From Ruegeria sp. TM1040 (GTDB lineage Bacteria; Pseudomonadota; Alphaproteobacteria; Rhodobacterales; Rhodobacteraceae): a stretch of DNA of 64,000 bases. A program made the translations under genes and the position numbers. Positions 10,726-22,498 of this stretch are shown piece after piece (the first letter of the stretch is position 1; each line of letters opens with the position of its first letter). The DNA is taken from contig NC_008044.1 of assembly GCF_000014065.1 (NCBI RefSeq), forward strand, positions 2,379,501 through 2,443,500, given 5' to 3'. The notes below the pieces were generated by a model. It was not told the DNA's origin. It searched no databases and worked only from the letters and a program-made list of their open reading frames with translations.

Positions 10726-12051
10726 TCAGCCGCGGGCGCGCACGGTCTGCATCAAGGCCAGAAGTGCGGACATATCCGGGCCACGCTCCATGCCGGTGAC
10801 GGCCTTGCGCAGCGGCATAAAGAGCCCCTTGCCTTTGCGGCCGGTCTTTTCCTTCACTGCTGCGGTCCATTTGCCCCAGCTCTCAGAGTCGTAGGGGCCT
10901 TCGGGCAGAAGGGTCATCGCCTCGGCGATAAACTCCTTGTCCTCGTCGGCAATCAGCGGCTCCGCTCCGTCGCGGCACAAGATCCACCAGCCCTCGAGAT
11001 CCTTGAGCGTGGTGATGTTTTCCTTGGCCACCGCCCAAAAGGCCTCTTGGGTGTCTGCGGGCACGCCAATGGCGTCGAGCTCGGATTTGACTGTCGCAAC
11101 CGGCAGGGTCTGCAGGTAGCGCGCGGTCAGCGGATAGAGATCCTCGGCGTCGAACTTGGTCGGCGCAGAGCCGAAACGGTTGATGTCAAAACCGTCAACC
11201 AGCTCGGCCATATCGGTGCGCAATTCCACCGGATCAGAGGACCCTAGACGCGCCATCAGCGACAGAAGCGCCATCGGTTTGACGCCCGCCTCGCGCAGAT
11301 CGCGCAGCGCCAACGTGCCAAGACGCTTGGAGAGCGCCTCGCCCTGCGGGCCGGTCAGCAGCGAGTGGTGGGCAAACTCGGGATGGCCATGGCCGAGCGC
11401 AGCCATGATCTGAATTTGCGTCGCGGTATTGGTGACATGGTCAGAGCCGCGCACAACATGGGTCACGCCCATGTCGGTGTCGTCCACCACAGAGGCGATG
11501 GTATAAAGGACCTGCCCGTCGCCGCGGATCAGCACCGGGTCCGAGACAGACGCCGCGTCGATGGAGATGTCACCAAGGATGCCATCGGTCCACTCGATGC
11601 GTTCCTGATCGAGCTTGAAGCGCCACACACCATTGCCGCGCTCGGCGCGCAGGGACTCTTTTTCCGCATCCGACAGCGCCAGTGCGGCGCGGTCATAGAC
11701 CGGCGGCTTGCCCATGTTGAGCTGCTTTTTGCGTTTGAGATCGAGTTCGGTCGGGGTCTCGAAGGCCTCGTAGAACCGGCCGATCTCGCGCAGCTTGTCG
11801 GCGGCCTCGGCATAGCGGTCGAGCCGCTCGGACTGGCGCTCCACCTTGTCCCAGGTGATGCCGAGCCATTCGAGATCCTGCTTGATCGCGTCGACGTATT
11901 CCTCCTTGGAGCGCTCGGGGTCGGTGTCGTCGATGCGCAGAATGAAGGTGCCGCCCGCCTTGCGAGCGATCAGGTAGTTCATCAAAGCAGTGCGCAGGTT
12001 GCCCACATGGATATAGCCGGTGGGGGACGGCGCAAAACGGGTGGTGGTCAT
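10726..12051 (-). CDS. gltX: Glutamyl-tRNA synthetase, short variant (GltX2 type)
   Basis: A 441-residue class I aminoacyl-tRNA synthetase. The N-terminal R-F-A-P-S-P-T-G-Y-I-H-V-G-N-L-R-T carries the HIGH motif as H-V-G-N, and the KMSKS loop appears as L-S-K-R-L-G at about 237-242. R-I-D-D-T-D and V-V-R-G-S-D-H are the usual substrate-binding segments. At 441 residues it is shorter than the ~470 of the main GltX. Many alphaproteobacteria carry two GltX proteins, one partly specialised for tRNA-Gln charging ahead of GatCAB amidation; which role this one has cannot be read from the sequence. A-G-G-A-G lies 7 bases before the ATG. Confidence 0.92.
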   Translation of the reverse strand: MTTTRFAPSPTGYIHVGNLRTALMNYLIARKAGGTFILRIDDTDPERSKEEYVDAIKQDLEWLGITWDKVERQSERLDRYAEAADKLREIGRFYEAFETPTELDLKRKKQLNMGKPPVYDRAALALSDAEKESLRAERGNGVWRFKLDQERIEWTDGILGDISIDAASVSDPVLIRGDGQVLYTIASVVDDTDMGVTHVVRGSDHVTNTATQIQIMAALGHGHPEFAHHSLLTGPQGEALSKRLGTLALRDLREAGVKPMALLSLMARLGSSDPVELRTDMAELVDGFDINRFGSAPTKFDAEDLYPLTARYLQTLPVATVKSELDAIGVPADTQEAFWAVAKENITTLKDLEGWWILCRDGAEPLIADEDKEFIAEAMTLLPEGPYDSESWGKWTAAVKEKTGRKGKGLFMPLRKAVTGMERGPDMSALLALMQTVRARG

Positions 12052-12146
12052 CGCAAATCTCCTGTTGCGCCTGCTCTGTCACAGGCGCGCGGAATTGTCC
12101 AGTTTTCGCATGGTGTGCCCCTCTGCGTGCGCCCCTGCGGGGCGTG

Positions 12147-12179
12147 GCCTCCGGCGGAGCTATTCTGGAAAAGATGAAG
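12147..12179 (+). repeat. 33-bp dispersed repeat, copy 1
   Basis: Begins GCCTCCGGCGGAG and ends GAAAAGATGAAG. It matches the sequence at 39370-39402 in 30 of 33 positions. It sits in the 228-bp gap between the divergent gltX and MBL genes, right after a GC hairpin (CGCCCC-TGC-GGGGCG at 12130-12144). The CTCC-GGC-GGAG core can form its own small hairpin. Nothing else clear is seen in this gap apart from the ribosome-binding site of the MBL gene. Confidence 0.7.
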
Positions 12180-12279
12180 GGGTCGGAGACCCTGCACGCA
12201 TTCGTGATCTAAGTTACACGGATTTCGAGCGCGGGCGCTCTAGTTTCACCACCTATCAAACAACTGGGAGACTGACATC

Positions 12280-13218
12280 ATGACGTTGAAGCTATCTCGC
12301 CGCGCGGCTCTTGCCGGTGTTGCGGCTGCCCCGATCGCCGCGGCGGTTGCGGCCCCTGCCCGCGCGGCCGGCCATGAAGCTGCCAAGGCGCCTCTGCATG
12401 CGCGTGCGTTCAAGGTGGGCGACTACACGGTTCACAGTCTGCTGGCGGGCAGCACCGGTCGCGACGGTGTGAAGGATATCTTTGGCGGCGGAGCCTCTGA
12501 TGAGGCGTTTTCCGAAGTCGCGGCAGAGAATTTCATCTCTGACACCAGCGCTCAGTTTTACTTTACGCCGACACTCGTGGACACCGGCTCGGAGAAGATC
12601 CTCTTTGACACCGGCCTCAATGCAGGTGGGATCACAAAAGCGCTGGCGGATGCGGGCGTGACGCCGGAAGAAGTGGATGTGGTGGTGCTGACCCATATGC
12701 ATGGCGACCACATCGGCGGCATGACCGACGACAGCGGCGCGGCGACCTTTGCCAATGCGCGCTATGTGACGGCAGCGGCGGAATATGACCACTGGACCGC
12801 AATGCCCGAAGGCAATGGCGGCGCGGATCGGGTGCGCGCCAAGGTGGCACCGCAGGCCGAGAAGATGAGCTTTATCGACGATGGTGGGGCGGTGGCCTCG
12901 GGCGTGACCGGGATGGCAGCCTTTGGGCATACGCCGGGCCATATGGTCTATATGATCGAGAGCGCCGGGCAGCAGCTGCTGCTGACGGCCGATCTGGCCA
13001 ATCACTATGTGTTCCCCTTTGCCCATCCCGAGTGGCAGACCAGCTTTGACACCGACAAGGATGCGGCCTCGGCCACGCGGCGGCGGGTGCTGGAAATGCT
13101 CGCTGACAGCCGCACGCCAATGATCGGCTATCACATGCCCTTCCCTGCCGCCGGCTATGTCGAGCGGCGCGGCGAAGGGTTCCGTTTTGTGCCGGTCAGC
13201 TATCAGATGATGGGCTAA
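12280..13218 (+). CDS. Tat-exported metallo-beta-lactamase-fold hydrolase
   Basis: A 312-residue protein. The N-terminus has the twin-arginine motif L-S-R-R-A-A-L-A followed by an alanine-rich core and a cleavage site near A-R-A-A-G, so it should be exported folded. The MBL zinc motif T-H-M-H-G-D-H-I-G-G is at about 143-152, the second metal ligands are F-G-H-T-P-G-H at about 211-217 and T-A-D-L-A-N-H at about 236, with the final His in G-Y-H-M-P-F. The set fits a dinuclear zinc hydrolase of the quorum-quenching lactonase/arylsulfatase-like group; the substrate is unknown. G-G-G-A-G lies 10 bases before the ATG. Its stop overlaps by 4 bp that of the convergent oxidoreductase. Confidence 0.88.
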   Translation: MTLKLSRRAALAGVAAAPIAAAVAAPARAAGHEAAKAPLHARAFKVGDYTVHSLLAGSTGRDGVKDIFGGGASDEAFSEVAAENFISDTSAQFYFTPTLVDTGSEKILFDTGLNAGGITKALADAGVTPEEVDVVVLTHMHGDHIGGMTDDSGAATFANARYVTAAAEYDHWTAMPEGNGGADRVRAKVAPQAEKMSFIDDGGAVASGVTGMAAFGHTPGHMVYMIESAGQQLLLTADLANHYVFPFAHPEWQTSFDTDKDAASATRRRVLEMLADSRTPMIGYHMPFPAAGYVERRGEGFRFVPVSYQMMG

Positions 13219-17994: not shown

Positions 17995-19035
17995 ATGGCC
18001 ACGCTTCTCTATCTTGTTCACGGCGCGGCCGTGCAGCAGCAACAGCAGCTTTCCTACAGTGTATTGTCCGCGCTCAAGCACGGTGTAGACGGTGTCGATC
18101 TGGTGTTGATCTGCGATGCGGCCAACCGCCGCCCCGACCTGCCCCTGCGCCATGTTGTGATCTCGCCAGAGCAGATCGCGCAATGGACCGACGGCGGGCG
18201 CCGACCAGCGCGCGCGCAGCTTCATGCCCTGGATCTGGCCCTTCGGGAGACAGGCGGGCCGGTGTGCTGGGCCTCGACCGATAGCGCATTCACCGCTGCG
18301 CCAGCTCGGCTCTTGGAGCGTATCACGCCAGAGACGCCTCTGTTTTTTGACCGGGACGGCTGGCTCACGTCTCGACCGGAATGGAGCCCCATTATTGACG
18401 CCTGCAAGGACTCTGCCCTCTCAGAACAGATCCAACCCAGCACAGAGGTCTTCGATACGGGCATTTTGGGGCTTTCGCCCTCAGATTTGGATTTCATAAA
18501 TCAATCATTGAGCCCCTCTTTTTGGCCCCGCATTCCCAATATTTTTGACAATTTCGAACAAATCCACCTATGCGCGCTCCTTGCGCAAAACGCACAGGAA
18601 TTGCGATTCTCTCACGACCTAGTGCAGCGGTATCAGGGCTATATGCGACATGTCTACCAAGGGCGGCTGGAGGCAATGTTTCCACCCGGCGGGGCGGTGA
18701 ACACCGCGCTGGCAGCACAGTTGCCTGCTATAACAGAGCCGCCCAAACCCTTGCATTTGCGTCTAAAAGCCAAAGCCTATGCGCTCAGACGCGGGCTTGG
18801 GCATGGGACGGAGTTTGGCTATCTCGCCTATCTCTGCGCCTTTGCGGCCCCGACCCCAGAGGGGCGCAATGTCTGGGCCAATATCGCTCTGGACATGATG
18901 GAGCGCTCTGCCCGCGCGCCGCAAAAGCTGGTCAAGGACCTCTCGAAGCTTGCGCCTGAGGCATTGCCTGATGCGGAGCTTTCACCACAAACCGAAGAAA
19001 GATGGCGCAGGTATTGGATGAACGCCGGGCTCTAA
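17995..19035 (+). CDS. Hypothetical protein, possibly GT-A-fold glycosyltransferase
   Basis: A 346-residue cytoplasmic protein without signal or membrane segments. I do not recognise a family. The first 150 residues read like a nucleotide-diphospho-sugar transferase: an N-terminal strand (T-L-L-Y-L-V-H-G), V-D-L-V-L-I-C-D at about 33-40, V-C-W-A-S-T-D-S-A-F at about 90 where such enzymes have their metal-binding acidic motif, then V-F-D-T-G-I-L-G-L, like the F-N-x-G strand of GT8-type enzymes. The DxD motif itself is not clear, so this is only a fold-level guess. The start is 8 bp after the MORN gene stop, suggesting a linked role in the envelope. Its stop overlaps by 4 bp that of the convergent photolyase. 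Confidence 0.55.
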   Translation: MATLLYLVHGAAVQQQQQLSYSVLSALKHGVDGVDLVLICDAANRRPDLPLRHVVISPEQIAQWTDGGRRPARAQLHALDLALRETGGPVCWASTDSAFTAAPARLLERITPETPLFFDRDGWLTSRPEWSPIIDACKDSALSEQIQPSTEVFDTGILGLSPSDLDFINQSLSPSFWPRIPNIFDNFEQIHLCALLAQNAQELRFSHDLVQRYQGYMRHVYQGRLEAMFPPGGAVNTALAAQLPAITEPPKPLHLRLKAKAYALRRGLGHGTEFGYLAYLCAFAAPTPEGRNVWANIALDMMERSARAPQKLVKDLSKLAPEALPDAELSPQTEERWRRYWMNAGL

Positions 19036-20555
19036 ACTCTTTCGCCCGCGTCAAGTTTTGCGAGGAACGCGCTCGCTTCCTGCAAAATCACATCGCGTTT
19101 CTCTTCGTCCATCCGGTCCCAGGTGCGATACATGTTGCCCATGCGCGGGTTGCCCTCAAACCGTGCCCGGTGGCGGTTCAGGAAATCCCAGTACAGCAGG
19201 TTGAACGGACAGGCGCCCTCGCCCGTTTTTTGCTTCACCTTATAGGCGCAACTTCCGCAATAATTGGACATTCTGTCGATGTAGGCACCGCTGGAGACAT
19301 AGGGTTTGGAGGCAATGATGCCGCCATCGGCAAACTGGCTCATGCCGACGGTGTTGGGCGCCTCGACCCACTCAAACGCATCTGCATACACTGCGAGATA
19401 CCATTCGTGCACCTGTGCCGGATCAACCCCGGCCAAAAGCGCAAAATTCCCGGTCACCATCAGCCGCTGGATGTGGTGGGCGTAGGCCTCCTGCCCGGTC
19501 TGCTCCACCGCTTGCGAGAGGCAATGCATGTCCGTCTCCGCCCCCCAATAGAGCGCGGGCAGCGCTCGGGTTTGTTCCAGTGCGTTGCGCGTGGGGTAAT
19601 CCTCCCCCTCGAGGAAATAGATCCCCCGCACATACTCCCGCCACCCGAGGATCTGCCGGATGAAACCTTCGACCGCATTGAGCGGCGCATGGCCGTCCTG
19701 ATGTGCGACCTCGGCCGCCTCGCAGATCTCCAGCGGGGTCAACAGACCGATGTTGAGATAGGGCGACAGGATGGAGTGATAGAGCCAGCGCTCATCCGTC
19801 ATCATCGCATCCTGATAGTCCCCGAACTGCGGCAGAGCGTGGGTGATGAAATGCGCAAGCGCCTCCTGCGCTTCTTCGCGGGTTGTGGCAAACCAGAACG
19901 GGCGCAGATCCCCGAAATGAGTGCCAAAGCGCGCCTCCACCAGATCCAGCACCTCCTCGACCTCGGCGTCCGGTTCAAACCGGGGTGGCCCCTTGTGGTC
20001 GATGATCTTGGGGGGCGCCTTGCGGTTCTCTGAATCGTAATTCCACTTGCCGCCAACCGGGGTGTCTCCCTCCATCAGAAGGCCGGTTTTCTTGCGCATC
20101 AGGCGATAGAAATACTCCATCCGGAGCTGTTTTTTGCCCTCGGCCCACTCGGTGAAATCCTCGCGCGTGGCGAGAAAGCGGTCGTCGGCATGAAAATGAA
20201 CCTTGAGGGGGGCATATTTCAACGCGTGGATCAGCCGCCACTCGCCCGGCGTGGTGGCCAGCACCTCCGAGGCGCCAAATTCTTCGGCCCGGCGCAAGAG
20301 TTCGCCCACGATGCTCTCCGCGCCATCCTCGTCCAGACGCCGATAGGCCACACGCCAGCCCTGCCCTTCTAGACGCTGCGCAAACTTGCGCATCGCCGCC
20401 AGCACCAACGCGATCTTCTTGGGGTGATGCGGGACATATGTGCCCTCGTCCATCACCTCCGCCATCACCACCACATCATGTGCAGGGTCTGCCGCTTTGA
20501 GCGCCGACAACCCTTCTGAAAGCTGGTCCCCCAGCACCAAAACAAGCCGTGTCAT
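19032..20555 (-). CDS. Iron-sulfur photolyase/cryptochrome (FeS-BCP, PhrB-like)
   Basis: A 507-residue flavoprotein of the bacterial cryptochrome/(6-4) photolyase group. The N-terminal Rossmann part starts L-V-L-V-L-G-D-Q-L, and the C-terminal helical domain includes N-T-V-G-M-S-Q-F-A-D-G-G. Four cysteines match the 4Fe-4S ligands of Agrobacterium PhrB: one in D-M-H-C-L-S, then C-G-S-C, and a fourth 13 residues on in G-A-C-P-F-N. In PhrB the enzyme uses FAD plus a lumazine antenna and repairs (6-4) photoproducts with light. The ATG at 20555 gives the correct N-terminal strand; the frame extends upstream through non-conserved sequence. Divergent from the leuA leader region. Confidence 0.93.
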   Translation of the reverse strand: MTRLVLVLGDQLSEGLSALKAADPAHDVVVMAEVMDEGTYVPHHPKKIALVLAAMRKFAQRLEGQGWRVAYRRLDEDGAESIVGELLRRAEEFGASEVLATTPGEWRLIHALKYAPLKVHFHADDRFLATREDFTEWAEGKKQLRMEYFYRLMRKKTGLLMEGDTPVGGKWNYDSENRKAPPKIIDHKGPPRFEPDAEVEEVLDLVEARFGTHFGDLRPFWFATTREEAQEALAHFITHALPQFGDYQDAMMTDERWLYHSILSPYLNIGLLTPLEICEAAEVAHQDGHAPLNAVEGFIRQILGWREYVRGIYFLEGEDYPTRNALEQTRALPALYWGAETDMHCLSQAVEQTGQEAYAHHIQRLMVTGNFALLAGVDPAQVHEWYLAVYADAFEWVEAPNTVGMSQFADGGIIASKPYVSSGAYIDRMSNYCGSCAYKVKQKTGEGACPFNLLYWDFLNRHRARFEGNPRMGNMYRTWDRMDEEKRDVILQEASAFLAKLDAGERV

Positions 20556-20712
20556 AATCGTGCTAACTGGCGCAGTGGGCGGGAAAATCCACCCGCAGTC
20601 AGAAAGTTCTTGGAAATTTTCAGCTCCGCCACCTTGCCCAGCACCCGCCATCGCTGCACCGCAGAGAATTTTGGCCCTTCCCATTCGCCGCTTGGCCTGT
20701 ATAACACGGGCC
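20556..20712 (+). promoter_or_regulatory. Upstream region of the leuA leader with -10-like TATAAC
   Basis: This is the first part of a 359-bp stretch between phr and leuA. TATAAC at 20700-20705 is a good -10 element and lies 7 bp before the ATG of the leader peptide, so the transcript may begin at or next to that ATG (leaderless). I see no convincing -35 at the usual spacing. Nothing else in this part is clear. Confidence 0.4.
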
Positions 20713-20799
20713 ATGACCACGTTTTTGCATATCCAGATTGCCGACGCTGCTTCCTGCGGCGCGCTTTCGCGTGGCCTACTGCTCCTAATCCGCCTCTGA
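20713..20799 (+). CDS. leuA leader peptide (28 residues, four leucines in a row)
   Basis: The short frame from ATG 20713 to TGA 20797-20799 codes for 28 residues ending R-G-L-L-L-L-I-R-L. Four consecutive leucine codons (cta ctg ctc cta, 20776-20787) include two uses of the rare CTA codon, as expected of an attenuation leader that senses charged tRNA-Leu. It lies 115 bp upstream of leuA on the same strand. No ribosome-binding site is seen before the ATG, which fits a leaderless start from the adjacent -10 element, as reported for trpL in Sinorhizobium. The peptide itself is not expected to have another function. Confidence 0.8.
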   Translation: MTTFLHIQIADAASCGALSRGLLLLIRL

Positions 20800-20850
20800 G
20801 CGTGCCATCCGGCGCGCCCGCTCAGAGGATGTGCATGCGCGCCATGGATT
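20793..20850 (+). promoter_or_regulatory. leuA attenuator: two mutually exclusive hairpins
   Basis: Hairpin A: CCTCTGAGCG (20793-20802) pairs perfectly with CGCTCAGAGG (20819-20828) and contains the leader stop codon. Hairpin B: GGCGCGC (20811-20817) pairs with GCGCGCC (20837-20843), extendable by CCAT (20805-20808) with ATGG (20844-20847). The arms cross, so only one can form. A ribosome stalled at the Leu codons leaves A free to form; one at the stop codon blocks A and permits B. B lacks a U-run, so termination may need Rho, or control may be on translation. This is a model from base pairing only. Confidence 0.6.
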
Positions 20851-20914
20851 GGACCCTACCCCCCGAACAACATGCCTGACGTCCCCGGGGATCAGAGCAA
20901 GAAAGACATTTGAC

Positions 20915-22498
20915 ATGACCAGCAAGACCGACACCGTGAACCAGCAGGATCGCGTTCTCATTTTTGACACCACGTTGCGCGATGGCGAGCAGAGCCCCGG
21001 CGCGACCATGACCCATGATGAAAAGCTCGAGATTGCCGAGCTTCTGGACGATATGGGTGTCGACATCATCGAGGCCGGTTTCCCGATTGCCTCGGAGGGC
21101 GATTTCAAGGCCGTGAGCGAGATCGCGGAACGCTCCAAGAACTCTGTGATCTGTGGCCTGGCGCGTGCGAATTTCAAGGACATCGACCGCTGCGCCGAAG
21201 CCGTGCGCAAGGCTGCGAAGCCCCGCATCCACACGTTTATCGGCACGTCGCCGCTGCACCGCGCCATTCCCAACCTTACCATGGATGAGATGGCCGAGCG
21301 CATCCACGACACCGTGACCCATGCGCGCAACCTCGTGGACAATGTGCAATGGTCGCCGATGGATGCCACGCGCACCGAATGGGATTACCTCTGCCGGGTC
21401 ATCGAGATCGCGATCAAGGCGGGGGCGACTACCATCAACATCCCTGACACGGTTGGCTATACCGCGCCGCGCGAGAGCGCCGACCTGATCCGGCGCCTGA
21501 TTGAAACCGTGCCCGGCGCTGACGAGATCATCTTTGCGACCCATTGCCATAACGACCTTGGCATGGCGACCGCGAACTCTTTGGCCGCAGTCGAGGCGGG
21601 CGCGCGCCAGATCGAATGCACGATCAACGGCCTTGGCGAGCGTGCGGGCAATACCGCGCTCGAAGAGGTGGTGATGGCAATGCGCGTGCGCAACGACATC
21701 ATGCCGTTCCAGACCGGGATCGACACCAAGAAGATCATGCATATCTCGCGCCGCGTCGCCACGGTTTCGGGCTTTAACGTGCAGTTCAACAAGGCGATCG
21801 TCGGCAAGAATGCCTTTGCCCACGAAAGCGGCATCCACCAGGATGGCATGCTCAAGAACAAGGAAACCTTCGAGATCATGCGCCCCGAAGACGTGGGCCT
21901 TGCTGGAACGTCGCTCCCCTTGGGCAAACACTCCGGCCGCGCCGCGCTGCGCGACAAGCTCTCGAGCCTCGGGTTTGAAATCGGAGACAACCAGCTCAAG
22001 GATGTATTCGTGCGCTTCAAGGAGCTCGCGGACCGCAAGAAAGAGGTGTTCGACGACGACATCATCGCGCTCATGCGCACCAGCGGCGACGAGGACGATC
22101 ACCTGAAGCTGGTGTCGATGAAAGTGGTCTGCGGCACCGGTGGTCCGGCGGAATCCACCGTCGAGATGGAAGTTGACGGCAAGGACGTGACGGAAACCGC
22201 CGAGGGCGACGGACCGGTGGATGCCACATTCAAGGCGATCCGCAAGATCCACCCCAACGCCGCGCATCTGCAGCTTTATCAGGTGCACGCCGTGACCGAG
22301 GGCACGGACGCGCAGGCAACCGTCTCTGTGCGCCTTGAAGAAGACGGCGTGATCGCCACCGGCGACAGCGCCAACACCGATACGGTTGTGGCCTCTGCGA
22401 TGGCATACATTGACGCGCTCAACCGCCTGATCGTGCGCCGCGACAAGATGGGCGAAGGCGCGGATTCGCGCGAGATTTCCTATAAAGACGTGGACTGA
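20915..22498 (+). CDS. leuA: 2-isopropylmalate synthase
   Basis: A 527-residue enzyme catalysing the first committed step of leucine synthesis: acetyl-CoA plus 2-oxoisovalerate to 2-isopropylmalate. The N-terminal TIM barrel opens with F-D-T-T-L-R-D-G-E-Q-S-P-G, carries H-C-H-N-D-L-G-M-A for metal binding at about 205-213 and the G-L-G-E-R-A-G-N-T segment, then H-E-S-G-I-H-Q-D-G. The C-terminal regulatory LeuA domain (about 390-515) is present, so leucine feedback inhibition is likely. ATG 20915 is used because upstream codons overlap the attenuator. Preceded by a leucine-rich leader peptide and hairpins, followed by a strong terminator. Confidence 0.96.
   Translation: MTSKTDTVNQQDRVLIFDTTLRDGEQSPGATMTHDEKLEIAELLDDMGVDIIEAGFPIASEGDFKAVSEIAERSKNSVICGLARANFKDIDRCAEAVRKAAKPRIHTFIGTSPLHRAIPNLTMDEMAERIHDTVTHARNLVDNVQWSPMDATRTEWDYLCRVIEIAIKAGATTINIPDTVGYTAPRESADLIRRLIETVPGADEIIFATHCHNDLGMATANSLAAVEAGARQIECTINGLGERAGNTALEEVVMAMRVRNDIMPFQTGIDTKKIMHISRRVATVSGFNVQFNKAIVGKNAFAHESGIHQDGMLKNKETFEIMRPEDVGLAGTSLPLGKHSGRAALRDKLSSLGFEIGDNQLKDVFVRFKELADRKKEVFDDDIIALMRTSGDEDDHLKLVSMKVVCGTGGPAESTVEMEVDGKDVTETAEGDGPVDATFKAIRKIHPNAAHLQLYQVHAVTEGTDAQATVSVRLEEDGVIATGDSANTDTVVASAMAYIDALNRLIVRRDKMGEGADSREISYKDVD

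Follow-up and report, generated by a model that had tools for sequence, protein, structure and literature searches.

How does a short open reading frame with a run of leucine codons, lying directly upstream of leuA in Ruegeria sp. TM1040, act on the gene behind it? We approached this question in a stretch of 64,000 nucleotides (NC_008044.1, positions 2,379,501 to 2,443,500 of the forward strand), referred to here as the window; the features of the locus are collected in Table 1. The frame encodes the peptide MTTFLHIQIADAASCGALSRGLLLLIRL, from the ATG at 20713 to the TGA at 20797-20799, with the C-terminus ...GLLLLIRL*. A first-pass annotation, made from the sequence alone, had described a 28-codon frame that ends on four leucine codons, two of them CTA. 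The frame and the run are as described, except that three further codons, for Ile-Arg-Leu, separate the leucine codons at 20776-20787 from the stop.

The proposal that this frame encodes a leucine-sensing leader peptide ahead of leuA was strengthened by comparison, because the leucine run is conserved across relatives. In Rhodobacterales loci, the leader peptide typically has the C-terminus G-LLLL-[S/I/T/V]-[R/C/S]-L, and the leader stop was TGA in all 63 rows of the alignment. Leucine was present at codon -7 in 68, at codon -6 in 77, at codon -5 in 75, and at codon -4 in all of 81 relatives. All four CTN codons occur at positions -7 to -5, and judging from this comparison the run is maintained as leucine. 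Codon -4 is nearly always CTT (45) or CTA (33) among the 81 loci, a choice that is restricted beyond the need for leucine, as would be expected if this codon is engaged in base pairing. Elsewhere CTA is rare, accounting for 4 of the 261 leucine codons in six genes of the window.

Nearer to its start, the leader has a second recurrent element. Codons 6-7 (20728-20733 in the window) read His-Ile or Asp-Ile (CATATC or GATATC) in 58 of 89 Rhodobacterales loci. Their place is fixed and the choice of codons hardly varies, a pattern that looks as though the nucleotide sequence itself mattered.

Table 1. Positions of the leader, of its predicted RNA helices and of leuA in the window.
Feature	Position	Strand	Evidence or remark
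-35-like hexamer TTCCCA	20678-20683	+	16 nt before the -10 hexamer; Rhodobacterales keep TT(T/C)(T/C)CA ahead of the leader ATG
-10 hexamer TATAAC	20700-20705	+	7 nt before the leader ATG
Leader ORF, 28 codons and TGA, without ribosome-binding site	20713-20799	+	Sequence reading; conservation
Leucine codons CTA CTG CTC CTA (putative sensor)	20776-20787	+	Codons -7 to -4 in relatives
Base stem part b, 5' arm TGCTC (Leu codons 2-3)	20780-20784	+	Pairs with 20895-20899; core pairs unchanging in the consensus fold of 11 congeners
Base stem part a, 5' arm CTAATCCG (spans the final Leu codon, the Ile codon and the first bases of the Arg codon)	20785-20792	+	Partner 20845-20852; order-wide covariation; fold of 11 congeners
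S23 (pseudoknot stem 1), 5' arm, includes the stop codon	20793-20802	+	98.7% of cells paired; 63 sequences
Alternative inner hairpin GUGCC:GGCGC, 5' arm; would replace stem 2	20802-20806 with 20811-20815	+	Minimum-energy fold
S34 (pseudoknot stem 2), 5' arm, inside the S23 loop, 1 nt from the S23 3' arm	20811-20817	+	Permutation test
S23 (pseudoknot stem 1), 3' arm	20819-20828	+	Covariation, 63 sequences
S34 (pseudoknot stem 2), 3' arm, 8 nt after S23	20837-20843	+	Conserved loop lengths
Base stem part a, 3' arm TGGATTGG	20845-20852	+	Covariation; consensus fold of 11 congeners
Hairpin CCCC...GGGG (20859-20862 with 20887-20890), inserted into the base stem in the genus of the window	20859-20890	+	
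leuA ribosome-binding region AGAGCAAGAAAGA, with 3' arm GAGCA (20895-20899) of base stem part b	20894-20906	+	
leuA, type I 2-isopropylmalate synthase (TIGR00973 / NF002087)	20915-22498	+	ATG at 20915

The first-pass annotation had also pointed to a TATAAC 7 nt before the leader ATG and to the lack of a ribosome-binding site, both of which can be read in the sequence, and had suggested that the leader may be translated without an untranslated region in front of it. Conservation within Rhodobacterales agrees with this suggestion. Of 89 loci of the order, 68 carry a hexamer that matches TATAAT in at least 5 of 6 positions at a distance of 6-8 nt upstream of the leader ATG; in shuffles, the share was 1.6%. 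When single positions were scanned for a match of at least 4 of 6, a distance of exactly 7 nt stood out with 58%, followed by 8 nt with 26%, and all others gave 0-8%. A Shine-Dalgarno (SD)-like motif preceded the leader in only 1 of 89 Rhodobacterales loci, against 80 of 89 for leuA, for which a looser motif was used. From the conserved -10 spacing we infer that the leader is probably translated in leaderless form, a reading that is well supported in Rhodobacterales and does not extend to other orders, whose loci did not show the spacing. Transcription is predicted to start at about 20711-20713, and the mRNA would then begin at or just before the leader AUG. On a genome-wide scale, TATAA boxes closely before an ATG were not enriched over control, and none of the 16 such sites read was convincing as a further leaderless leader, so the evidence for leaderless initiation lies in conservation at the leuA locus rather than in the bare pattern.

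On the minus strand, a divergent ORF of 562 codons extends over 19032-20720 of the window. Taken at its greatest possible length, it would overlap the leuA promoter, and its N-terminal part (MTRLVLVLGDQLSEG...) resembles, by eye only, a cryptochrome/photolyase-related protein.

Between the leader and leuA, both hairpins of the first-pass annotation were found where it had placed them. The first, S23, is a perfect helix of 10 bp (CCTCTGAGCG/CGCTCAGAGG) that contains the leader stop, and the second, S34, is a perfect helix of 7 bp (GGCGCGC/GCGCGCC). Among 63 sequences, changes on both sides were found at three pairs of S23. The outer pairs covary even though the last residue of the peptide alters (Leu, Ser, Pro, Phe, Ile, Arg, Val or His), so pairing takes precedence over the peptide at these positions. 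S34 was scored by duplex permutation, as the plain count from the MAFFT alignment (75.9% paired) is too low owing to shifts of the arm by 1-2 nt. The duplex score with the own partner was 19.44, compared with 16.73 for permuted partners (sd 0.27, maximum 17.76, 5000 permutations).

The two hairpins had been thought unable to form together. The loops that connect them in the window have lengths of 8, 1 and 8 nt, which would permit an H-type pseudoknot, and the helices therefore need not exclude each other. Across Rhodobacterales, the L2 loop mostly has 1-3 nt and the L3 loop mostly 5-12 nt. These conserved lengths, taken together with the covariation, fit the geometry of an H-type pseudoknot better than they fit mutual exclusion. 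An inner hairpin, GUGCC:GGCGC, is possible in 93.7% of cells, and its covariation did not exceed that of shuffles.

A third helix, absent from the first-pass annotation, connects the leader with leuA. Here, the end of the leucine run and the next codon pair with a segment just upstream of leuA. In permutation scores, which here as for S34 ignore the relatedness of the sequences and are not exact probabilities, this base stem reached 16.29 with the own partner and 12.79 with permuted partners (sd 0.28, maximum 13.92, n=75); in a wider set, the corresponding values were 16.47 and 13.57 for Rhodobacterales, and 15.42 and 13.68 (sd 0.37) for other alphaproteobacterial orders, with a few genomes represented twice. 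The stronger argument is provided by independent matched changes in separate genera, in which an altered codon is accompanied by a compensating change downstream. Such pairs include CTTAGC:GCTAAG, CTTACGC:GCGTAAG (Paracoccus), TCCTAG:CTAGGA (Leisingera), TCCTAAGCC:GGCTTAGGA (Roseovarius), CTACTAAGC:GCTTAGTAG and TCCTTATG:TATAAGGA.

The position of the downstream arm relative to leuA differs between loci. At loci L047, L053, L060, L071, L160, L178 and L179, the leucine codons have their partner at the leuA SD, 6-11 nt away from the start codon. For the majority of Rhodobacterales, some 17-26 nt separate the end of the 3' arm from the leuA ATG, and a second SD-like segment lies in between. In the genus of the window the base stem is predicted to be split: the consensus fold of 11 congeners, in agreement with the single-sequence fold, pairs 20785-20792 with 20845-20852 and 20780-20784 with 20895-20899. 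The main arm in the window ends 62 nt from the leuA ATG, and the 5-bp part b alone reaches the ribosome-binding region; this part is nearly invariant among the 11 congeners and thus gives no covariation support. Over all loci compared, the helix between leucine codons and ribosome-binding region is the best-supported link from leader to leuA, and as a comparative result it favours translational over transcriptional control.

The hairpin insert that splits the stem in this genus (20859-20890) changes fast in sequence while its ends are kept, as CCCC...GGGG or, in L097, as CCAAG...CTTGG.

The spread of the element was followed from leuA loci outward. A first scan covered 97 leuA loci, taken from the genus of the window and from 80 genome records, and found a leucine-run leader directly in 85 of them. 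Among the 12 loci without a leader at first, the element was present in six loci that had been reversed and in L010, L022, L024 and L026; L077 begins too near a contig end, and a search of L072 gave no element match. A covariance model of the element core, R1, which was trained on Rhodobacterales and a few near relatives, found a single site with a meaningful score in the genome of the window, the leuA leader (77.3 bits). R1 matched all 292 sampled genomes and all 112 genera of the order, mostly with one copy each, with adjacency of these matches to leuA checked for the loci that were read. Sampling of the whole class gave matches at E<=0.01 in 26 of 240 genomes, of which 23 belong to families other than that of the window; among the 26 loci read from these matches, leuA followed directly in 24. 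Altogether, R1 reaches leuA genes in more than 20 other alphaproteobacterial families. Inspection of about 40 more leuA upstream regions from other families showed many leaders that end in LLLLIRP or LRLxxP, followed by CCCCTGA...TCAGGGG.

A conserved element ahead of leuA almost certainly exists, and its features go far past what chance would produce. The alignment across Rhodobacterales that the first-pass annotation had proposed as a check found both the leucine codons and the stems conserved in related genomes. No relevant match to an Rfam family was obtained in the region, at the gathering score or at E-values up to 5, and Rhodobacterales would gain a near-universal candidate regulatory RNA of leuA that is absent from Rfam.

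The layout closely recalls the LEU element, described computationally at actinobacterial leuA (Seliverstov et al., 2005; PMC1262725), a kinship that the first-pass annotation had not noticed. That element comprises a leucine-run leader, a base stem formed by the leucine codons and the leuA SD, a pseudoknot and an alternative hairpin, with no obvious terminator (PMC1262725). Its mechanism was left open: the leader looks like that of an attenuator, leuA leader mutations in Streptomyces coelicolor deviate from the predictions of classical attenuation, and a protein partner was proposed (PMC1262725). The alphaproteobacterial element shares the leucine-run leader ORF, the base stem between leucine codons and SD region, the enclosed pseudoknot and the lack of a terminator. 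It differs in that the LeuA encoded downstream is of type I (TIGR00973), whereas the actinobacterial LEU element precedes type II (TIGR00970), and in that the base stem of Rhodobacterales usually lies somewhat upstream of the SD and is split by a hairpin in the genus of the window.

The same parts could be traced in actinobacterial loci. In Nonomuraea (L197), a stem 479-490:506-517 is accompanied by the pseudoknot GGCCGGC:GTCGGCC and the base GCTCCTT:GAGGAGC. Nocardia (L198) has the pseudoknot GACCGGC:GCCGGTC, Tsukamurella (L199) the same pseudoknot sequence with a longer loop, and Microbacterium (L200) the base stem GCTTCTTCTT:GAGAAGAAGC. R1 aligned in register with the leaders of L197 (22.8 bits), L198 (19.9 bits) and L200 (17.4 bits), scores that are modest and partly due to shared leucine codons, and it missed the L199 leader, though stem and pseudoknot partner are present there. 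No leader of this kind precedes the genes on Streptomyces plasmids that are annotated as 2-isopropylmalate synthase (L201, L204), and R1 gave no leader match in these two loci or in L115 and L116. By its architecture, the element of the window appears to be of the LEU-element kind, which does not imply common descent. Leaderless leader ORFs and ribosome-mediated control are already known in both phyla. In the literature searched, we found no paper on a leuA leader in Rhodobacterales or other Alphaproteobacteria, or on the LEU element outside Actinobacteria; older surveys (Vitreschak 2004; Lopatovskaya 2010) may list such leaders.

What the element does may be deduced from these parts. Comparison of related loci shows the leader, the leucine run, three covarying helices, the spacing of the promoter and the lack of a terminator; stalling, the direction of regulation and the controlled step are what we infer. 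The element may well be a leucine-responsive translational attenuator of the LEU-element type, a reading that we hold with about as much confidence as doubt. Transcription would begin on the leader AUG or right beside it, and translation of the leader would need no ribosome-binding site. With leucine plentiful, the ribosome would run through the leucine codons and depart, and the free RNA would fold into the pseudoknot of S23 and S34, closed by the base stem, with the leucine codons paired to the leuA ribosome-binding region; leuA would then be translated poorly. With leucyl-tRNA in short supply, the ribosome would stall on the leucine codons and block the base stem, the leuA start would be exposed, and LeuA would be made. 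That the free leader masks the leuA start and a stalled ribosome unmasks it is suggested by the covarying link between leucine codons and leuA start.

Predicted accessibility is partly in line with such a switch. In nested-structure partition functions, which leave the pseudoknot outside the calculation, masking of the leucine codons raised the accessibility of the leuA ribosome-binding site in 53 of 83 Rhodobacterales loci (15 opposite) and in 28 of 36 other loci (2 opposite), with a small mean gain. In Rhodobacterales, a ribosome at the stop codon had a predicted effect similar to that of a ribosome at the leucine codons. The window itself showed no gain (0.56 to 0.53), since the hairpin insert puts the main arm of the base stem far from the leuA ATG. 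The behaviour of the Streptomyces coelicolor leader mutations (PMC1262725) likewise counts against the switch.

In the translational attenuator, the leucine codons would act as both sensor and masking strand, and runs such as CUC CUU resemble the anti-SD sequence. Somewhat more tentatively, we suggest that the LEU element is a translational attenuator common to two phyla and two LeuA families, that through the likeness of CUC/CUU leucine runs to the anti-SD it may have arisen or spread repeatedly, and that leaderless initiation drives it in Rhodobacterales. If the mechanism holds, a single codon run measures leucine and masks the gene start, which would be a very simple way to build a sensor. 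The question posed by the LEU element also becomes testable in tractable marine and soil bacteria.

The covarying helix at the leuA ribosome-binding region bears directly on the main alternative, ribosome-mediated transcriptional attenuation, which leaves this helix unexplained. Under that alternative, S23 would be the antiterminator, and S34 or the untranslated region would serve as terminator or Rho-entry site when the ribosome reaches the stop. The arm 20811-20817 is indeed common to competing pairings, as in classical attenuators, and because the stop is inside S23, a ribosome that has reached it would favour formation of S34 by itself. Rho use has, moreover, been suggested for leader peptides without intrinsic terminators (PMC1262725). 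The first-pass annotation had remarked that the second hairpin lacks a U-run, and this proved right: no U-run follows S34 in the window, T-runs of at least 5 are rare in relatives (the longest between S23 and leuA was below 5 in 85 of 90 loci), and an intrinsic terminator is absent. The L2 and L3 loops of S34 also stay short, a constraint that a terminator hairpin acting by itself would not impose. Between the two possibilities named in that annotation, Rho-dependent and translational control, the helix tips the balance to the latter, and we retain a transcriptional step, with Rho or otherwise, as an unlikely rival.

A compact and very strongly conserved pseudoknot might instead be the binding site of a protein regulator, with leader translation in a minor role, an idea put forward for the LEU element of Actinobacteria on account of the mutational data (PMC1262725). 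According to that paper, organisms other than Actinobacteria lack the suggested partner (PMC1262725), yet a covarying element of the same layout is found here, which argues that RNA and ribosome suffice. Decoding of the leader is further indicated by the retention of leucine at codons -7 to -5 with all four CTN codons, and the signature of a leaderless start is conserved as well; we regard a protein regulator as rather improbable. Still less probable, indeed very much so, is that the leader boosts leuA translation by termination and re-initiation, with the structure tuning the hand-over and no masking switch. Re-initiation has been proposed generally for leader genes (PMC4833913), but in the window 118 nt lie between the leader stop and leuA, a spacing that varies widely among relatives, and neither the leucine run nor the covariation of the base stem would be predicted. 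Finally, the leader fold of the window is only modestly stabler than shuffles (z = -1.69), as a functionless leucine-rich frame amid GC-rich repeats or an artefact of alignment would have it, a hardly credible account that is refuted by the occurrence of the element in 292 of 292 genomes, the three covarying helices and the promoter at fixed distance.

Other known leaders share some of these traits with the putative translational attenuator. The enterobacterial Leu_leader (Rfam RF00512) is a leucine leader peptide ahead of leuA. It did not match in the region, at the gathering score or at E-values up to 5, and it differs in its U-run terminator, which is absent from the element of the window. 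Mycobacterial leaderless short ORFs with polycysteine, a subject of work by Canestrari et al. in 2020, reportedly control the operon downstream through the run of the sensed amino acid. They sense cysteine, and we know of no conserved pseudoknot in them.

Further parallels come from published leaders in both phyla. LeuL1 of Streptomyces lividans (MRFGLLLLSCRGEGL), upstream of leuA, is alike in its GLLLLSC core, leaderless transcript and lack of a Rho-independent terminator (PMC8079986); it belongs to another phylum, has a shorter peptide, and is expected to precede a type II LeuA. The trpL attenuator (rnTrpL) of Sinorhizobium meliloti likewise has a leaderless leader ORF, confirmed by Ribo-seq, in an alphaproteobacterium (PMC10117765), but it responds to tryptophan, and the published account is of transcription attenuation with release of an sRNA. 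The uORFC-8-2 motif upstream of cysS comes from the same order, Rhodobacterales, and is likewise linked to ribosome-mediated attenuation by an upstream ORF (PMC8632094); its codons are for cysteine, and formation of an intrinsic terminator was proposed (PMC8632094).

Type II leuA genes of Rhizobiaceae also have leucine-run leaders of their own, ASLLLLGLIRGCRVR in Sinorhizobium meliloti (L202) and TSLLLLGLTRGCRVL in Rhizobium leguminosarum (L203), with complements of the leucine codons near the leuA start.

Some loci deviate from the simple order of leader and leuA. In L010, L022 and L026, some 440 nt separate the element from leuA further downstream. A short ORF, which by eye resembles a cupin, occupies the interval, so that the first target of the switch there seems to be another gene. 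In L016 (1751-1840 and beyond), the base-stem partner AGCTAAGGA lies just before an ATG that is not that of leuA, which is about 226 nt from the leader stop; the masked SD would therefore belong to the inserted ORF. In Phaeobacter inhibens, a leuA about 92% identical to that of the window is found at 10917-12476 of NZ_CP081282.1, a record of 17.9 kb listed as a plasmid, so that either leuA is plasmid-borne or the contig is mislabelled.
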